Assembly (NCBI RefSeq): GCF_005145025.1
Contig: NZ_CP039695.1
Span: 2,768,501 to 2,832,500, forward strand
Reading direction: 5' to 3'
Length of the DNA stretch: 64,000 nt
Origin: Novosphingobium sp. EMRT-2
Lineage (GTDB): Bacteria; Pseudomonadota; Alphaproteobacteria; Sphingomonadales; Sphingomonadaceae
Shown one piece after another: positions 16,888 through 20,953 of this stretch. Positions within the stretch are counted from its first letter, which is position 1, and the number at the start of each line of letters is the position of its first letter. Below the pieces are notes generated by a model. That model did no database searches. It saw only the letters and a program-made list of their open reading frames with translations, and had not been told where the DNA came from. The translations under genes and the position numbers were made by a program.

Positions 16888-17188
16888 CCTGCCTTGCCCG
16901 TCGGCCTGTCGGGACCCAGGGTAGTCCGGCGGCAGTCCAGCGGGTGATCCCCGCGTCCGGCAGGCCTGGCTTGGTGATCGCGCCGGATCATGCGCCAGTC
17001 CGCGAGACCTGAAAGCGGCGGCCCGCCCAAGGGGCGGCGGCGCTTTCCACAACACCAATTCCTGCGAACGCTCTTATGCTTATCGATCGCGCCCGGTATC
17101 GAACCAGCCGCGACGGCAACCCTGTGCGGGATAGGCAACCAAGCTATGCAGCGATGTCCCGATCGACAAGGGGAGCGTGCAAAAATCC

Positions 17189-17268
17189 GTCATAGCCGGT
17201 TTCCGCCAGCCTTGCCCGCGCAACGACGCTCGTCCATCAGGGGCGCGGGAGAAGCGCGCTATGATGAC
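17189..17268 (+). promoter_or_regulatory. Nested inverted repeats around the qor-like start
   Basis: GTCATAG (17189-17195) can pair with CTATGAtGAC (17259-17268), and CCCGCGC (17215-17221) with GCGCGGG (17243-17249). The folded leader would hide both the GGGAGAAG ribosome-binding site (17247-17254) and the start codon at 17261. It may control translation or be part of another small repeat. Pairing was read by eye only. Confidence 0.35.
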
Positions 17269-18253
17269 CATGCAGGCCCTTGAGGTATCCACGCTGACGC
17301 CTGATCTGACCGGCCTCGGCCTCGTCGCCAGGCCGGTTCCCGAACCGGGCGACGGACAGGTGCTGGTCCGGATCGAAGCGGCCGCGCTGGGCTTTCCCGA
17401 CCTGCTGATGACGCGCGGCGGCTATCAGGCGAAACCGCCGCTGCCGTTCGTGCCGGGCATGGAAGCGGCGGGGACGGTGGTGGCCGCGGGCGCTGGCGCG
17501 GAATGGGAGAAGGGCGCGCGGGTCATCGTCGGCGGTTTGACCGGGGGTTGCGCGCAATTCGGCGTCCACGCCACTGATGCGATCGTGCCGATGCCCGATG
17601 CGCTCTCGTTCCCTGAAGCGGCGGCGTTGCGGGCGGCGTATCTGACGGCCTGGGTCGCCCTGGTGCGGTGCGGAGCGGCGCAGCCGGGACAGTGGGTGCT
17701 GATCCACGGCGCGGCCGGCGGGGTGGGGCTGGCCGCGGTCGATCTGGCGCGAGCGCTAGGGTTGCGCGTGATCGCTGTCGCCTCCAGCGAGGACAAGCGC
17801 CGGCGCATTGCGGACCTCTATGCGCCGGAGCATGTGCTGGCCGGCCCGGCGGGCTTCCGCGAGGCGGTGCTCGACATCACCGGCGGCCGCGGCGCCGACC
17901 TTGTCTATGATCCGGTCGGGGGCGATGCGTTCGACGAATCGACGCGCTGCATCGCGTTCGGCGGACGCCTGCTGGTGGTCGGTTTCGCCAGTGGGCGGAT
18001 TCCGGACATTCGCGCCAATATCCCGCTGATCAAGGGCTTCTCCGTGGTGGGCGTGCGCGCCGGGGAGTTCGGACGCCGCTTTCCCGATCTTGGTCGGGAG
18101 AACGTGGCGGCCATCGTCAGGCTGGCCGGAGAAGGACGCATTCGCCCGCATGTTCACGCGGCGCTGCCGCTGTCGCACTGGCGCGAGGCCTTCGAGGCGA
18201 TGGAAAACCGCACGGTCATCGGACGCACCGTGCTGTTGCCGCACGCGGATTGA
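17261..18253 (+). CDS. NADPH:quinone oxidoreductase-type MDR enzyme
   Basis: The 330-residue protein belongs to the zinc-free medium-chain dehydrogenase/reductase class. It has the GroES-like N-terminal part with GFPDLLMTRGGYQ and a Rossmann domain with HGAAGGVGLAAVDLARALG. The GADLVYDPVGGDAF segment is typical of quinone or enoyl reductases of this group. The zinc-binding cysteine cluster of alcohol dehydrogenases is absent. The substrate is not known. Neighbouring in-frame ATGs at 17264 and 17270 are alternatives; 17261 has the best spacing from GGGAGAAG. The gene stands alone between a gene-free interval and the sRNA. Confidence 0.88.
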   Translation: MMTMQALEVSTLTPDLTGLGLVARPVPEPGDGQVLVRIEAAALGFPDLLMTRGGYQAKPPLPFVPGMEAAGTVVAAGAGAEWEKGARVIVGGLTGGCAQFGVHATDAIVPMPDALSFPEAAALRAAYLTAWVALVRCGAAQPGQWVLIHGAAGGVGLAAVDLARALGLRVIAVASSEDKRRRIADLYAPEHVLAGPAGFREAVLDITGGRGADLVYDPVGGDAFDESTRCIAFGGRLLVVGFASGRIPDIRANIPLIKGFSVVGVRAGEFGRRFPDLGRENVAAIVRLAGEGRIRPHVHAALPLSHWREAFEAMENRTVIGRTVLLPHAD

Positions 18254-18276
18254 TTCCGCGAAACGGGAACGGGCGC

Positions 18277-18309
18277 AAAAAAAGGGCCGCTCCGTTGCCG
18301 GGCGGCCCT
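18277..18309 (-). terminator. Intrinsic terminator of the leftward sRNA
   Basis: On the minus strand an 8-base stem AGGGCCGC/GCGGCCCT (18302-18309 with 18283-18290, loop of 11) is followed by a run of seven T (18277-18283, sharing one base with the stem). This is a classical intrinsic terminator for leftward transcription, although no leftward protein gene enters it. It may also slow rightward transcripts leaving the oxidoreductase gene. Confidence 0.75.
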
Positions 18310-18340
18310 GAATAGTTTGGGAGAGGATGCCTGAAAGGCC
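18277..18340 (-). ncRNA. Small RNA resembling the alphaproteobacterial suhB family
   Basis: A predicted leftward transcript of about 64 bases. It has a short 5' hairpin GCCT-TTC-AGGC (18329-18339), a single-stranded stretch ATCCTCTCCCAAACTATTCA, and a strong terminator hairpin with a U-run. A promoter-like pair lies at the right distance upstream. The C-rich anti-Shine-Dalgarno loop between two hairpins recalls the suhB RNA family of Alphaproteobacteria; this is from memory of the motif, not from a covariance search. The loop segment CTCTCCCAA is the exact complement of the vdh ribosome-binding site 300 bases away. It is encoded antisense to the vdh leader if vdh transcription starts that far upstream. 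Confidence 0.6.
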
Positions 18341-18345
18341 CGCCC

Positions 18346-18374
18346 TATGTGCGTTTCAGACCGTTTCAGCGCAA
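18346..18374 (-). promoter_or_regulatory. Predicted sRNA promoter
   Basis: On the minus strand TTGCGC (18369-18374) and CACATA (18346-18351) are separated by 17 bases. Transcription would begin near 18340, a few bases before the first hairpin of the sRNA. The match to the -35 and -10 consensus is moderate. Confidence 0.45.
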
Positions 18375-18652
18375 GTGCGAAAGTTAACGGAACGATTGCG
18401 TTTTATGCACTTACTGGCGCCGAAGTGCAGGTTTCTTGCGCTCCCGCTGTGTGAAAAATGCGTTAAAACATGGCGTTCATTCGTATGCGCAAGGTTTGGC
18501 TCGCGCGGTCCGATGCAGTGGGCGCAATTCTGAAACGGAACAGGACGCGGCTGTTTGCGCGCGGTTTCGCACCTGCAGGCAGGGCATGCGGGGAGGCATT
18601 GCCATGCCCCGACTCAATTGCTATGAAATATAACATATTGGGAGAGTCGCTC
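18375..18652 (+). other. Gene-free upstream region of vdh
   Basis: This AT-richer stretch lies between the sRNA promoter and vdh. A GGCATG/CATGCC inverted repeat occurs near 18585-18608. An open frame of 68 codons beginning at 18327 crosses the region, but it has no family resemblance and overlaps the sRNA, so it is not called. The vdh promoter is probably here; I cannot place it. Confidence 0.4.
18627..18646 (+). promoter_or_regulatory. vdh leader: AATAT-AAC-ATATT site and ribosome-binding site
   Basis: A 5-base inverted repeat AATAT/ATATT with a 3-base spacer (18627-18639) touches the ribosome-binding site TTGGGAGAG (18638-18646), which ends 6 bases before the vdh ATG. The inverted repeat could bind a MarR- or GntR-type repressor. 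The ribosome-binding site is a 9-base perfect copy of 18317-18325 within the sRNA gene, so the sRNA can pair with it. Confidence 0.45.
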
Positions 18653-20053
18653 ATGATCTTCGAACGTTTGAACCCCCTGACGGGCGCGGTCGCCTCCTCG
18701 GCGGAAGCCATGAAAGCCGGTGATATTCCCGCCATAGCGGCGAAGGCCGGCGCGGCTTTCCCGGCATGGGCGGCGATGGGGCCGAACGCCCGGCGCGCGG
18801 TGCTGATGAAAGCCGCCGCCGCGCTCGAGGCGCGCAAGGACGCCTTTGTCGAGGCGATGATGGGCGAGATCGGCGCCACCGCCGGCTGGGCCATGTTCAA
18901 CCTGGGCCTTGCCGCCAGCATGGTGCGCGAGGCGGCGGCGCTGACCACGCAGATCGCCGGCGAGGTGATTCCATCGGACAAGCCCGGCTGCCTGTCGATG
19001 GCGTTGCGCGAACCGGTGGGCGTGATCCTGGGCATCGCGCCGTGGAACGCGCCCATCATCCTGGGTGTGCGCGCCATCGCCGTGCCGCTCGCGTGCGGTA
19101 ACGCGGTGATCCTCAAGGCCAGCGAGACCTGCCCGCGCACGCACGCGCTGATTATCGAGGCTTTTGCCGAGGCCGGGTTCCCCGATGGCGTGGTCAACGT
19201 GGTGACCAACTCGCCGGCGGATGCGGCCGAGGTGGTGGGCGCGCTGATCGATGCGCCGGAAGTGAAGCGCATCAACTTCACCGGTTCCACCGCAGTCGGC
19301 AAGATCATCGCCAAGCGTGCGGCCGAGCATCTCAAGCCCTGCCTGCTCGAACTGGGCGGCAAGGCCCCGTTGCTGGTGTTGGAAGACGCCGATCTGGACG
19401 AGGCGGTAAAGGCGGCGGCGTTCGGCGCGTTCATGAACCAGGGCCAGATCTGCATGTCGACGGAGCGGATCATCGTGGTCGATGCCGTGGCGGACGAATT
19501 CGCGCGCCGCTTCCGCGATAAGGTCGCCGCCATGCCGGTGGGCGATCCGCGCCAGGGCACCACGCCGCTGGGCGCGGTGGTCGATGCCAAGACCGTCGCG
19601 CATTGCCGCGCGCTGATCGCCGACGCCTTGGCGCAGGGCGCGGAACTGCTCGTGGGCGGGGAAACCGAACAGGGCGTGCTGATGCCGGCGCATGTGGTCG
19701 ACGGCGTGACGCAGGGCATGAAGCTGTTCCGCGATGAAAGCTTCGGGCCGGTGGTCGGCGTCATCCACGCGCGCGATACCGAACATGCGATCGAACTGGC
19801 GAACGACAGCGAGTATGGCCTGTCCGCCGCCGTCTTCACCAGGGACATCGCCAAGGGCCTGTCCGTCGCCCGCCGCATCCATTCGGGCATCTGCCACGTC
19901 AATGGCCCGACGGTTCACGACGAGGCGCAGATGCCCTTCGGCGGCGTTGGCGCATCGGGCTACGGCCGCTTCGGCGGCAAGGCCGGCATCGACAGCTTCA
20001 CGGAACTGCGCTGGATCACGGTCGAGACCCAGCCGGGGCATTTCCCGATCTGA
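18653..20053 (+). CDS. vdh: Vanillin dehydrogenase (aldehyde dehydrogenase superfamily)
   Basis: This NAD-dependent enzyme is expected to oxidise vanillin (or 4-hydroxybenzaldehyde) to the acid. The 466-residue protein is of standard ALDH length with N132 in GIAPWNAP, general base E233 in LELGGKAP, and nucleophile C267 in NQGQICMSTERI. The NQGQICMSTER form and the partner gene point to the vanillin/salicylaldehyde branch (called ligV in other sphingomonads). It lies 45 bases upstream of ech, which makes the vanillin. The ATG at 18653 is chosen for the GGGAGAG site 6 bases upstream. Regulation may involve both the operator-like repeat and the sRNA described upstream. Confidence 0.88.
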   Translation: MIFERLNPLTGAVASSAEAMKAGDIPAIAAKAGAAFPAWAAMGPNARRAVLMKAAAALEARKDAFVEAMMGEIGATAGWAMFNLGLAASMVREAAALTTQIAGEVIPSDKPGCLSMALREPVGVILGIAPWNAPIILGVRAIAVPLACGNAVILKASETCPRTHALIIEAFAEAGFPDGVVNVVTNSPADAAEVVGALIDAPEVKRINFTGSTAVGKIIAKRAAEHLKPCLLELGGKAPLLVLEDADLDEAVKAAAFGAFMNQGQICMSTERIIVVDAVADEFARRFRDKVAAMPVGDPRQGTTPLGAVVDAKTVAHCRALIADALAQGAELLVGGETEQGVLMPAHVVDGVTQGMKLFRDESFGPVVGVIHARDTEHAIELANDSEYGLSAAVFTRDIAKGLSVARRIHSGICHVNGPTVHDEAQMPFGGVGASGYGRFGGKAGIDSFTELRWITVETQPGHFPI

Positions 20054-20098: not shown

Positions 20099-20953
20099 AT
20101 GGCTGACCAGCCCGCCGTCGAGCGCGCCGAAGAAGATACCGTCGCCTTCACCGTCGAGAACGGCATTGCCTGGGTGAAGTTCAACCGCCCGGAAAAGCGC
20201 AATTGCATGAGCCCGAAGCTCAACCGCCAGATGGGCCGCGTGATCGCCGATCTGGAATTCCGCGATGACGTGAAGGTGCTGGTGCTGACCGGCGAGGGCG
20301 AGGCCTGGTCGGCGGGCATGGACCTCAAGGAATACTTCCGCGAAACCGAGGCGCAGGGCCTCTGGGCGATCCGCAAGTCGCAGCGCGAAGCCTATTCGTG
20401 GTGGGAACGCCTGCGCTGGTATGAAAAGCCGACGATCGCGATGATCAACGGCTGGTGCTTTGGCGGTGGCTATGGCCCGCTGTTCGCCTGCGACATCGCC
20501 GTCGCTGCGGAAGACGCGCAGTTTGGTCTTTCGGAAATCAACTGGGGCATCCTGCCGGGCGGCGGCGCGTCGAAGGTCGCGGCCGATCTCATGCCGCTGC
20601 GCAAGGCGATGTACCACGCGATGATGGGCGAGAACCTGACCGGCAAGCAGGCCGCCGAACAGGGCCTGGTGACCGAGGCCGTGCCCGCCGACAAGCTCCA
20701 CGCGCGCGTGCTCGAAATCGCCGAAGCGCTGTGCAAGAAGGACGGCCATGCCCTACGCGCGACCAAGTGGGCGGTGCGCCGCATGGTCGAGATGACTTAC
20801 GACAATGCCGAGGACTACCTGATCCGCGCGCAGGAAGCGCTGCACAATTTCGGCGGCGTGGAAGCGCGCAAGGAAGCGACCCGTCAGTTCCTGGACGAAA
20901 AGAGCTTCAAGCCCGGCCTCGGCACGTTCGACGCGAGCAAGGTCAAGCGCTGA
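20099..20953 (+). CDS. ech: p-Hydroxycinnamoyl-CoA hydratase/lyase (feruloyl-CoA)
   Basis: The enzyme hydrates feruloyl-CoA (or 4-coumaroyl-CoA) and splits it to vanillin (or 4-hydroxybenzaldehyde) and acetyl-CoA. The 284-residue protein is of the crotonase fold. Family-specific segments are visible: AWSAGMDLKEYFRE, INGWCFGGG, GLSEINWGI with catalytic E146, and AEDY with Y240, which match the residues known to be needed in the Pseudomonas HCHL enzyme. The C-terminus QFLDEKSFKPGL is also typical. It is the second gene after vdh. No feruloyl-CoA synthetase is present in the window. Confidence 0.93.
   Translation: MADQPAVERAEEDTVAFTVENGIAWVKFNRPEKRNCMSPKLNRQMGRVIADLEFRDDVKVLVLTGEGEAWSAGMDLKEYFRETEAQGLWAIRKSQREAYSWWERLRWYEKPTIAMINGWCFGGGYGPLFACDIAVAAEDAQFGLSEINWGILPGGGASKVAADLMPLRKAMYHAMMGENLTGKQAAEQGLVTEAVPADKLHARVLEIAEALCKKDGHALRATKWAVRRMVEMTYDNAEDYLIRAQEALHNFGGVEARKEATRQFLDEKSFKPGLGTFDASKVKR

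Follow-up and report, generated by a model that had tools for sequence, protein, structure and literature searches.

A predicted small RNA (sRNA) gene reads leftward between an oxidoreductase-like gene and an aldehyde dehydrogenase gene in the window, i.e. the whole 64-kb stretch of Novosphingobium sp. EMRT-2 DNA that was analysed (Table 1). The range 18277-18374 comprises promoter plus gene. No ORF of at least 80 aa on either strand overlaps positions 18254-18462; the oxidoreductase-like gene is convergent and the dehydrogenase gene divergent. This agrees with the preliminary description of this DNA, which saw no protein gene reading into the terminator. The name vdh, which that description gave to the dehydrogenase gene, fits because the next gene encodes p-hydroxycinnamoyl-CoA hydratase/lyase (NF006588 over its cut-off), but it remains a name by context: an NCBIfam search of the vdh protein itself returned no model reaching its cut-off.

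Table 1. Features of the sRNA locus, with positions counted from the first letter of the window.
Feature	Position	Strand	Remark
Quinone-oxidoreductase-like gene, convergent neighbour	17177..18253	+	Predicted start; TIGR02824 below cut-off
Rfam RF00519 suhB/MmgR match	18346-18269	-	42.9 bits vs gathering score 41; model 1-77 of 77
Rho-independent terminator, stem plus seven T	18277..18308	-	Seven T at 18283-18277; read from sequence and fold
Predicted sRNA transcript, ~64 nt	18277..18340	-	Both ends inferred: ~7 bases past -10, T-run end
Exposed C-rich seed CCTCTCCCAA / CCUCUCCCAA	18317..18326	-	Unpaired at >=0.99 per base in predicted transcript
5′ hairpin GCCU-UUC-AGGC	18329..18339	-	Four pairs invariant in 41 copies
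-10-like CACATA	18346..18351	-	CA.A columns conserved (72 de-duplicated upstream regions, among matches listed)
-35-like TTGCGC	18369..18374	-	17 bases from -10-like element
Promoter box TTTCGCACTTGC	18371..18382	-	Exact string 3x in genome, each upstream of a sibling
Upstream dyad, imperfect GTGC-N7-GCAA	18396..18410	-	Conserved form TTGC-N7-GCAA
vdh ribosome-binding site TTGGGAGAG	18638..18646	+	Exact 9-base complement of seed
Aldehyde dehydrogenase gene "vdh" (name by context), divergent neighbour, candidate target	18653..20053	+	
p-Hydroxycinnamoyl-CoA hydratase/lyase gene, downstream of vdh	20099..20953	+	NF006588, 442 bits, cut-off 276

The succession first described, TTGCGC-17-CACATA, a small hairpin, a C-rich loop and a terminator with seven T, was borne out base for base in order and position. 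The predicted 64-nt transcript folds at -27.7 kcal/mol with hairpin, open seed and terminator in that order; the folding z-score was -2.43 for longer stretches, with 4/200 shuffles folding at least as well. The terminator, called strong, does have a G+C-rich stem and seven T, but the stem carries one bulge and a generic scan recovered no terminators at the locus. Likewise, the promoter-like elements stand at a 17-base spacing and are conserved, but the -10 is a poor match to sigma-70 and a generic scan recovered no promoters. With both generic scans empty and the -10 poor, it is conservation, not consensus, that supports the promoter claim. A sceptical reading is that the stem and T run are merely the terminator of the convergent oxidoreductase-like gene, whose stop codon lies ~30 bases before the stem, and that the rest is chance. 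However, the T run follows the stem on the minus strand only, and the hairpin, the seed and the promoter box are also kept by copies located next to other genes, which makes this reading highly improbable.

The Rfam covariance model RF00519, proposed at the outset as a check on the minus strand, matches above its curated cut-off, upholding the assignment to the suhB family. The margin over the gathering score is narrow (42.9 vs 41 bits), with E values of 1.7e-5 in the 64-kb window and 9.2e-8 in 351 bases, and this is the sole Rfam match above curated cut-offs within the window. The layout is that of alpha-r8 RNAs, with a weak 5′ hairpin, a single-stranded C-rich core and a Rho-independent terminator, and it recurs in 41 aligned copies. 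The Caulobacter 10-mer core UUUCCUCCCU agrees with the window copy at only 6/10 letters in the Rfam alignment, though ungapped, at the expected place and exposed. The sphingomonad form of the core, UCCUCUCC, shows no variation among the 41 copies, a set picked for high model score. The main alpha-r8 copy is described, in the text available, as adjoining an N-formylglutamate amidohydrolase gene, which extra copies need not do (PMC12559287); the window copy sits between the oxidoreductase-like gene and vdh. The feature is almost certainly the gene for a trans-acting alpha-r8 (SuhB/MmgR/Sis) sRNA, transcribed leftward from ~18340 to 18277, and it adds one member to an already known family.

A search of the organism's own genome (4.77 Mb, 5 contigs) with RF00519 found five copies, scoring 53.4, 42.9 (window), 42.9, 42.7 and 40.8 bits. 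The fifth falls just under the cut-off, and the next-best genome match reaches 24.2 bits. All five siblings have GCCTTTCAGGCATCCTCTCCCAAA in common and are identical in hairpin and seed. Among 119 genomes sampled from the bacterial family, 105 contained RF00519 at E up to 0.001 (97 over the cut-off), with 1 to 7 copies per genome; in the other 14, the stricter filters applied to so large a genome set yielded no match. The 41-copy alignment combined the 30 best-scoring loci of the bacterial family, the five siblings and six vdh-linked copies, and is biased toward conserved copies. Of its 23 invariant columns, 21 fall within the hairpin and the seed. RNAalifold predicted the unchanging hairpin alone for these 41 copies, with no covariation, a result that is uninformative for the 5′ hairpin because the hairpin never varies. 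When folded singly, all 41 copies formed a G+C-rich stem before the T run, the letters of the stem differing between them; this fits terminator function but does not amount to separate covariation evidence. Sequences resembling the sRNA gene were also present on nine plasmid or second-replicon records in PLSDB, from Novosphingobium, Sphingobium, Sphingomonas, Croceibacterium and Sphingopyxis. On one of these (locus L387) the similar stretch adjoins a glycoside hydrolase gene near a sugar transporter gene.

The siblings also share an upstream signal. All five carry YTTCGCACTTGC over the -35 element. The variant CTTCGCACTTGC occurs four times in the genome, namely at the two siblings that lack the exact box, at L371 (see below) and at L353, which is without such an arrangement. 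When one mismatch was allowed the box had 33 genome matches and its reversed control 32, hence near-exact sites alone stand out. For public genomes, at least 80 loci were chosen for an exact core, 79 of them with enough upstream sequence. Among the matches listed, TTCGCACTTGC lies upstream of 51/79 copies, and CACTTGC was found in the upstream 75 bases of 56/79, mostly at one position. De-duplication left 72 upstream regions among the matches listed, in which a conserved TTGC-N7-GCAA, a gap, TTCGCACTTGC and a -10-like CA.A follow one another; the TTGC block matching the -35 is conserved across these regions and CGCACTTGC is found in 51 of the 72. Organisms among the matches listed include Novosphingobium, Erythrobacter, Porphyrobacter, Croceibacterium and Citromicrobium. 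In EMRT-2 the strict dyad TTGCR-N5-YGCAA is found at 2/5 siblings and at L371, the window copy having GTGC for TTGC. The strict dyad alone is not specific, as it has 23 genome places against 17 for the control. Box and dyad together occur at 65 distinct places in the fetched loci, a set heavily biased toward alpha-r8; at 64 of these an alpha-r8 core follows, and the other is L371. With the shared promoter box, the upstream signal can be searched for. A further copy of the box with one mismatch, TTTCGCACCTGC, was observed on the plus strand at 18565-18576. It precedes the vdh start by 77 bases, and the nearest relative (L063) retains it.

The box invites comparison with Sinorhizobium meliloti, where PhaR binds the mmgR promoter according to the available text (PMC12542648). 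The sRNA box TTTCGCACTTGCACAA resembles that PhaR site, but its spacer is one base longer, and control of the sRNA by PhaR is a possible reading of the sequence. The single phasin gene of EMRT-2 (contig C1, 2392642) has upstream of it two sites of the exact S. meliloti PhaR spacing (L380), flanking a TTGACT -35-like element in an arrangement like that described for phaP1 of S. meliloti. One could suppose that the chief role of the sRNA is in PHB storage under PhaR/AniA control, like that of MmgR in Sinorhizobium, with catabolic repression secondary. PhaR binding at mmgR and the similarity of the box speak for this, as does the report, in the accessible part of a review, that PHB granules favour suhB transcription in Sphingopyxis granuli TFA (PMC6563040). 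Against it, the exact spacing belongs to the phasin promoter and the sRNA box has the extra base. Moreover, the seed match in phaC lies within the coding frame and is not conserved. We regard a primarily PHB-related role as unlikely. phaC itself was rejected as a target, since its GGGAGAGG match lies inside a frame that is open for 354 bases upstream; a match at that place was present in 2/30 genus loci (own genome and nearest relative) and absent in 28.

L371 (own genome, C1:2584192-2584400) is the one place found with the alpha-r8 dyad and box that is not an alpha-r8 locus. Its leader contains GAGAGGATG, complementary to the seed region of the sRNA and extendable through one wobble, and is followed by a 27-aa ORF whose ribosome-binding site is strong. 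The neighbouring genes we take, from our own reading of the ORFs, to be guaA and gluQ. A scan of L371 against Rfam gave sub-threshold matches alone. L371 is a candidate sponge or target of the sRNA. The CrfA sponge of Caulobacter is described as having a stem-loop whose G/A-rich sequence complements the alpha-r8 core (PMC12559287), to which the anti-seed stretch of the L371 leader may be compared; unlike CrfA, the L371 leader precedes a 27-aa ORF and has the promoter signature of alpha-r8 genes. A more elaborate scheme, in which the siblings would be co-regulated through a dedicated box, L371 would be a built-in sponge or feedback target and one sibling would have been recruited beside vdh to silence the ferulate/vanillin genes, is a long shot.

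The adjacent vdh gene is a candidate target. The sRNA loop CUCUCCCAA is the exact complement of the vdh ribosome-binding site, and the sRNA-vdh duplex is predicted at -15.8 kcal/mol; a ranking by duplex energy did not single out vdh among sites in the window. TTGGGAGAG occurs 23 times in the genome against 12 for the reversed control, five of the occurrences being the siblings themselves and 18 lying elsewhere. Five TTGGGAGAG matches (L040, L043, L046, L048, L057) were seen to lie within GGGGAGAGGGTTGGGAGAGGGG-like stretches, which are probably a dispersed repeat and not sRNA targets.

Conservation of the pair was surveyed at one locus per genome in the 30/59 genus genomes that had a protein match at E up to 1e-100, with 8 further protein matches left out. 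The seed core lies divergently upstream of vdh, at -213 to -360, in 7/30 of these loci, and at L073 and L090 the 8-mer is near vdh on the other strand. Beyond the window, Rfam places the family in 6/6 linked loci, of which five exceed the cut-off and one scores 39.6 bits, and did not find it in nine unlinked vdh loci scanned. In a tree of 20 proteins the seven linked vdh form one side of a branch with support 88/93. The linkage thus arose once, so its conservation counts as one event. Three of the 80 loci listed by name also have the pair, namely those of N. capsulatum NBRC 12533, N. taihuense CGMCC 1.3432 and the MAG Novosphingobium sp. 17-62-19. The starts of linked vdh genes contain GGGAGA in 10/10 and TTGGGAGA in 7/10 cases; at 13 unlinked loci (L069-L081) GGGAGAG was found in 5/13, and TGGGAGA and TTGGGAGA each in 0/13. 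A conserved inverted repeat shares its edge with the TT of TTGGGAGAG. This repeat, ATTGCTAT...ATAACA at ~18618-18640, lies just 5′ of the vdh ribosome-binding site and was observed in most of the vdh relatives read (L064-L079), with or without a linked sRNA; it is probably an operator of the ferulate/vanillin genes.

The single origin, the common type of ribosome-binding site and the adjoining inverted repeat weaken the case for vdh as a target. It stands at about even odds that the sRNA is a real alpha-r8 RNA whose adjacency to vdh is incidental, acting on distant catabolic mRNAs as its siblings would. Same-seed siblings lie elsewhere in the genome, and any of them could reach vdh, so the two need not be neighbours; unlinked vdh starts have GGGAGAG as well (5/13), and the linkage has a single origin. 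On the other hand, one of the 18 non-sibling TTGGGAGAG lies ~300 bases from the sRNA at a divergent start, where ~0.01 would be expected (330 bases, five loci), and TTGGGAGA marks 7/10 linked starts vs 0/13 unlinked. Pairing between sRNA and vdh is plausible from the complementarity. That the divergent vdh is a direct target is the most speculative step in our argument, and we put it forward tentatively, at somewhat less than even odds.

Other genes may be reached through the same type of site. The pattern GGGAGAGGN{2,11}ATG had 44 genome matches against 3 for the reversed control; a first pattern, TTTGGGAGAGGN{1,9}ATG, had 0 in the genome. An open frame of at least 100 aa followed 33/44 matches, and 30 of these 33 were taken to Pfam (L108, L131 and L132 being left out). 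Frames open for more than 200 bases upstream or with at least three earlier starts were dropped, which retained 24. Of the genes so retained behind GGGAGAGG ribosome-binding sites, 20/24 were classed as carbon uptake or catabolism, the classing being the author's own. The control GAGGAGAA gave 16 matches and 10 frames of at least 100 aa, 4/10 being classed as uptake or catabolism without like filtering, and one of these four is also in the test set. The genes behind GGGAGAGG sites thus look rich in uptake and catabolism, a suggestive result from a small and subjectively classed sample.

Two further target proposals fell away. A TonB-receptor regulon like that of Caulobacter was not supported: in the leaders of 30/88 Plug-domain matches, with up to three candidate starts per gene, seed complements of at least 7 bases were found in 2/30 vs 3/30 for the reversed string, i.e. 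no enrichment. Under the stricter pattern GGGAGAGGN{2,11}ATG three TonB receptors have GGGAGAGG before their start. A Rieske oxygenase of VanA/dicamba-demethylase type (L049, own genome C1:2014470; one NCBIfam match, far below cut-off) has TTGGGAGAG before its start. The site is not conserved, being kept in 0/4 plasmid-borne homologue leaders (47-65% identical, read from 664 records with a match).

Relatives of the sRNA have been studied elsewhere. SuhB of S. granuli TFA is given as 61 nt long and as binding the thnR 5′ UTR with Hfq (review PMC6563040). The connection of suhB to catabolite repression in another sphingomonad is thus in print. The likeness to the window sRNA lies in the Rfam family name, the length (61 vs ~64 nt predicted) and the sphingomonad host, together with the catabolite-repression role proposed there via an mRNA 5′ UTR (PMC6563040). 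The known target of that SuhB, thnR, is a tetralin regulator, whereas the copy described here is one of five and adjoins vdh. In Caulobacter, SisA acts with Hfq to repress mRNAs by way of its seed (PMC12559287). SisA-D of Caulobacter crescentus resemble the window sRNA in being alpha-r8 siblings with a weak hairpin, an exposed C-rich core and a Rho-independent terminator (PMC12559287), but their core is UUUCCUCCCU as against UCCUCUCCCA here. Moreover, the accessible text reports no conserved upstream motif for the four Caulobacter siblings, whereas a shared box is present here, and it places TonB-receptor targets in the SisA regulon (PMC12559287), whereas no seed enrichment appeared in the 30 receptor leaders. 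MmgR of S. meliloti is the founding member of RF00519 according to the Rfam description. It is 77 nt long, Hfq-dependent and has a carbon-storage role (PMC8401924); it is described as a single copy that limits PHB and phasins, with its promoter under PhaR and NtrC (PMC9049629, PMC8401924, PMC12542648). A limited literature search found no suhB sRNA in Novosphingobium; either the promoter motif or the linkage to vdh may already be described in primary work on SuhB or alpha-r8 phylogeny.

What computation shows is the match to the family, the anatomy, the existence of sibling copies and the promoter box that these share. From the studied relatives we infer that the CCUCUCCCAA loop, with Hfq, would pair with ribosome-binding sites of the GGGAGAG type and so block the translation of genes for carbon catabolism as long as a better carbon source is present. 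By this analogy, repression through the C-rich loop is quite likely. vdh, whose ribosome-binding site is an exact nine-base complement of the loop, might be silenced likewise. Taken together, a real alpha-r8 sRNA gene acting by repression through its C-rich loop is the reading we favour, at a probability of roughly 0.8.

Sphingomonads are studied for the breakdown of lignin aromatics and pollutants and, to our knowledge, their choice among carbon sources is poorly understood. The interest of the locus is carried by the link to vdh and the shared promoter. Should catabolic genes, vdh for example, be silenced at their ribosome-binding sites by alpha-r8 siblings, these RNAs would offer a handle on sphingomonad catabolite repression and, if this is true, would be a target in strains converting lignin aromatics.
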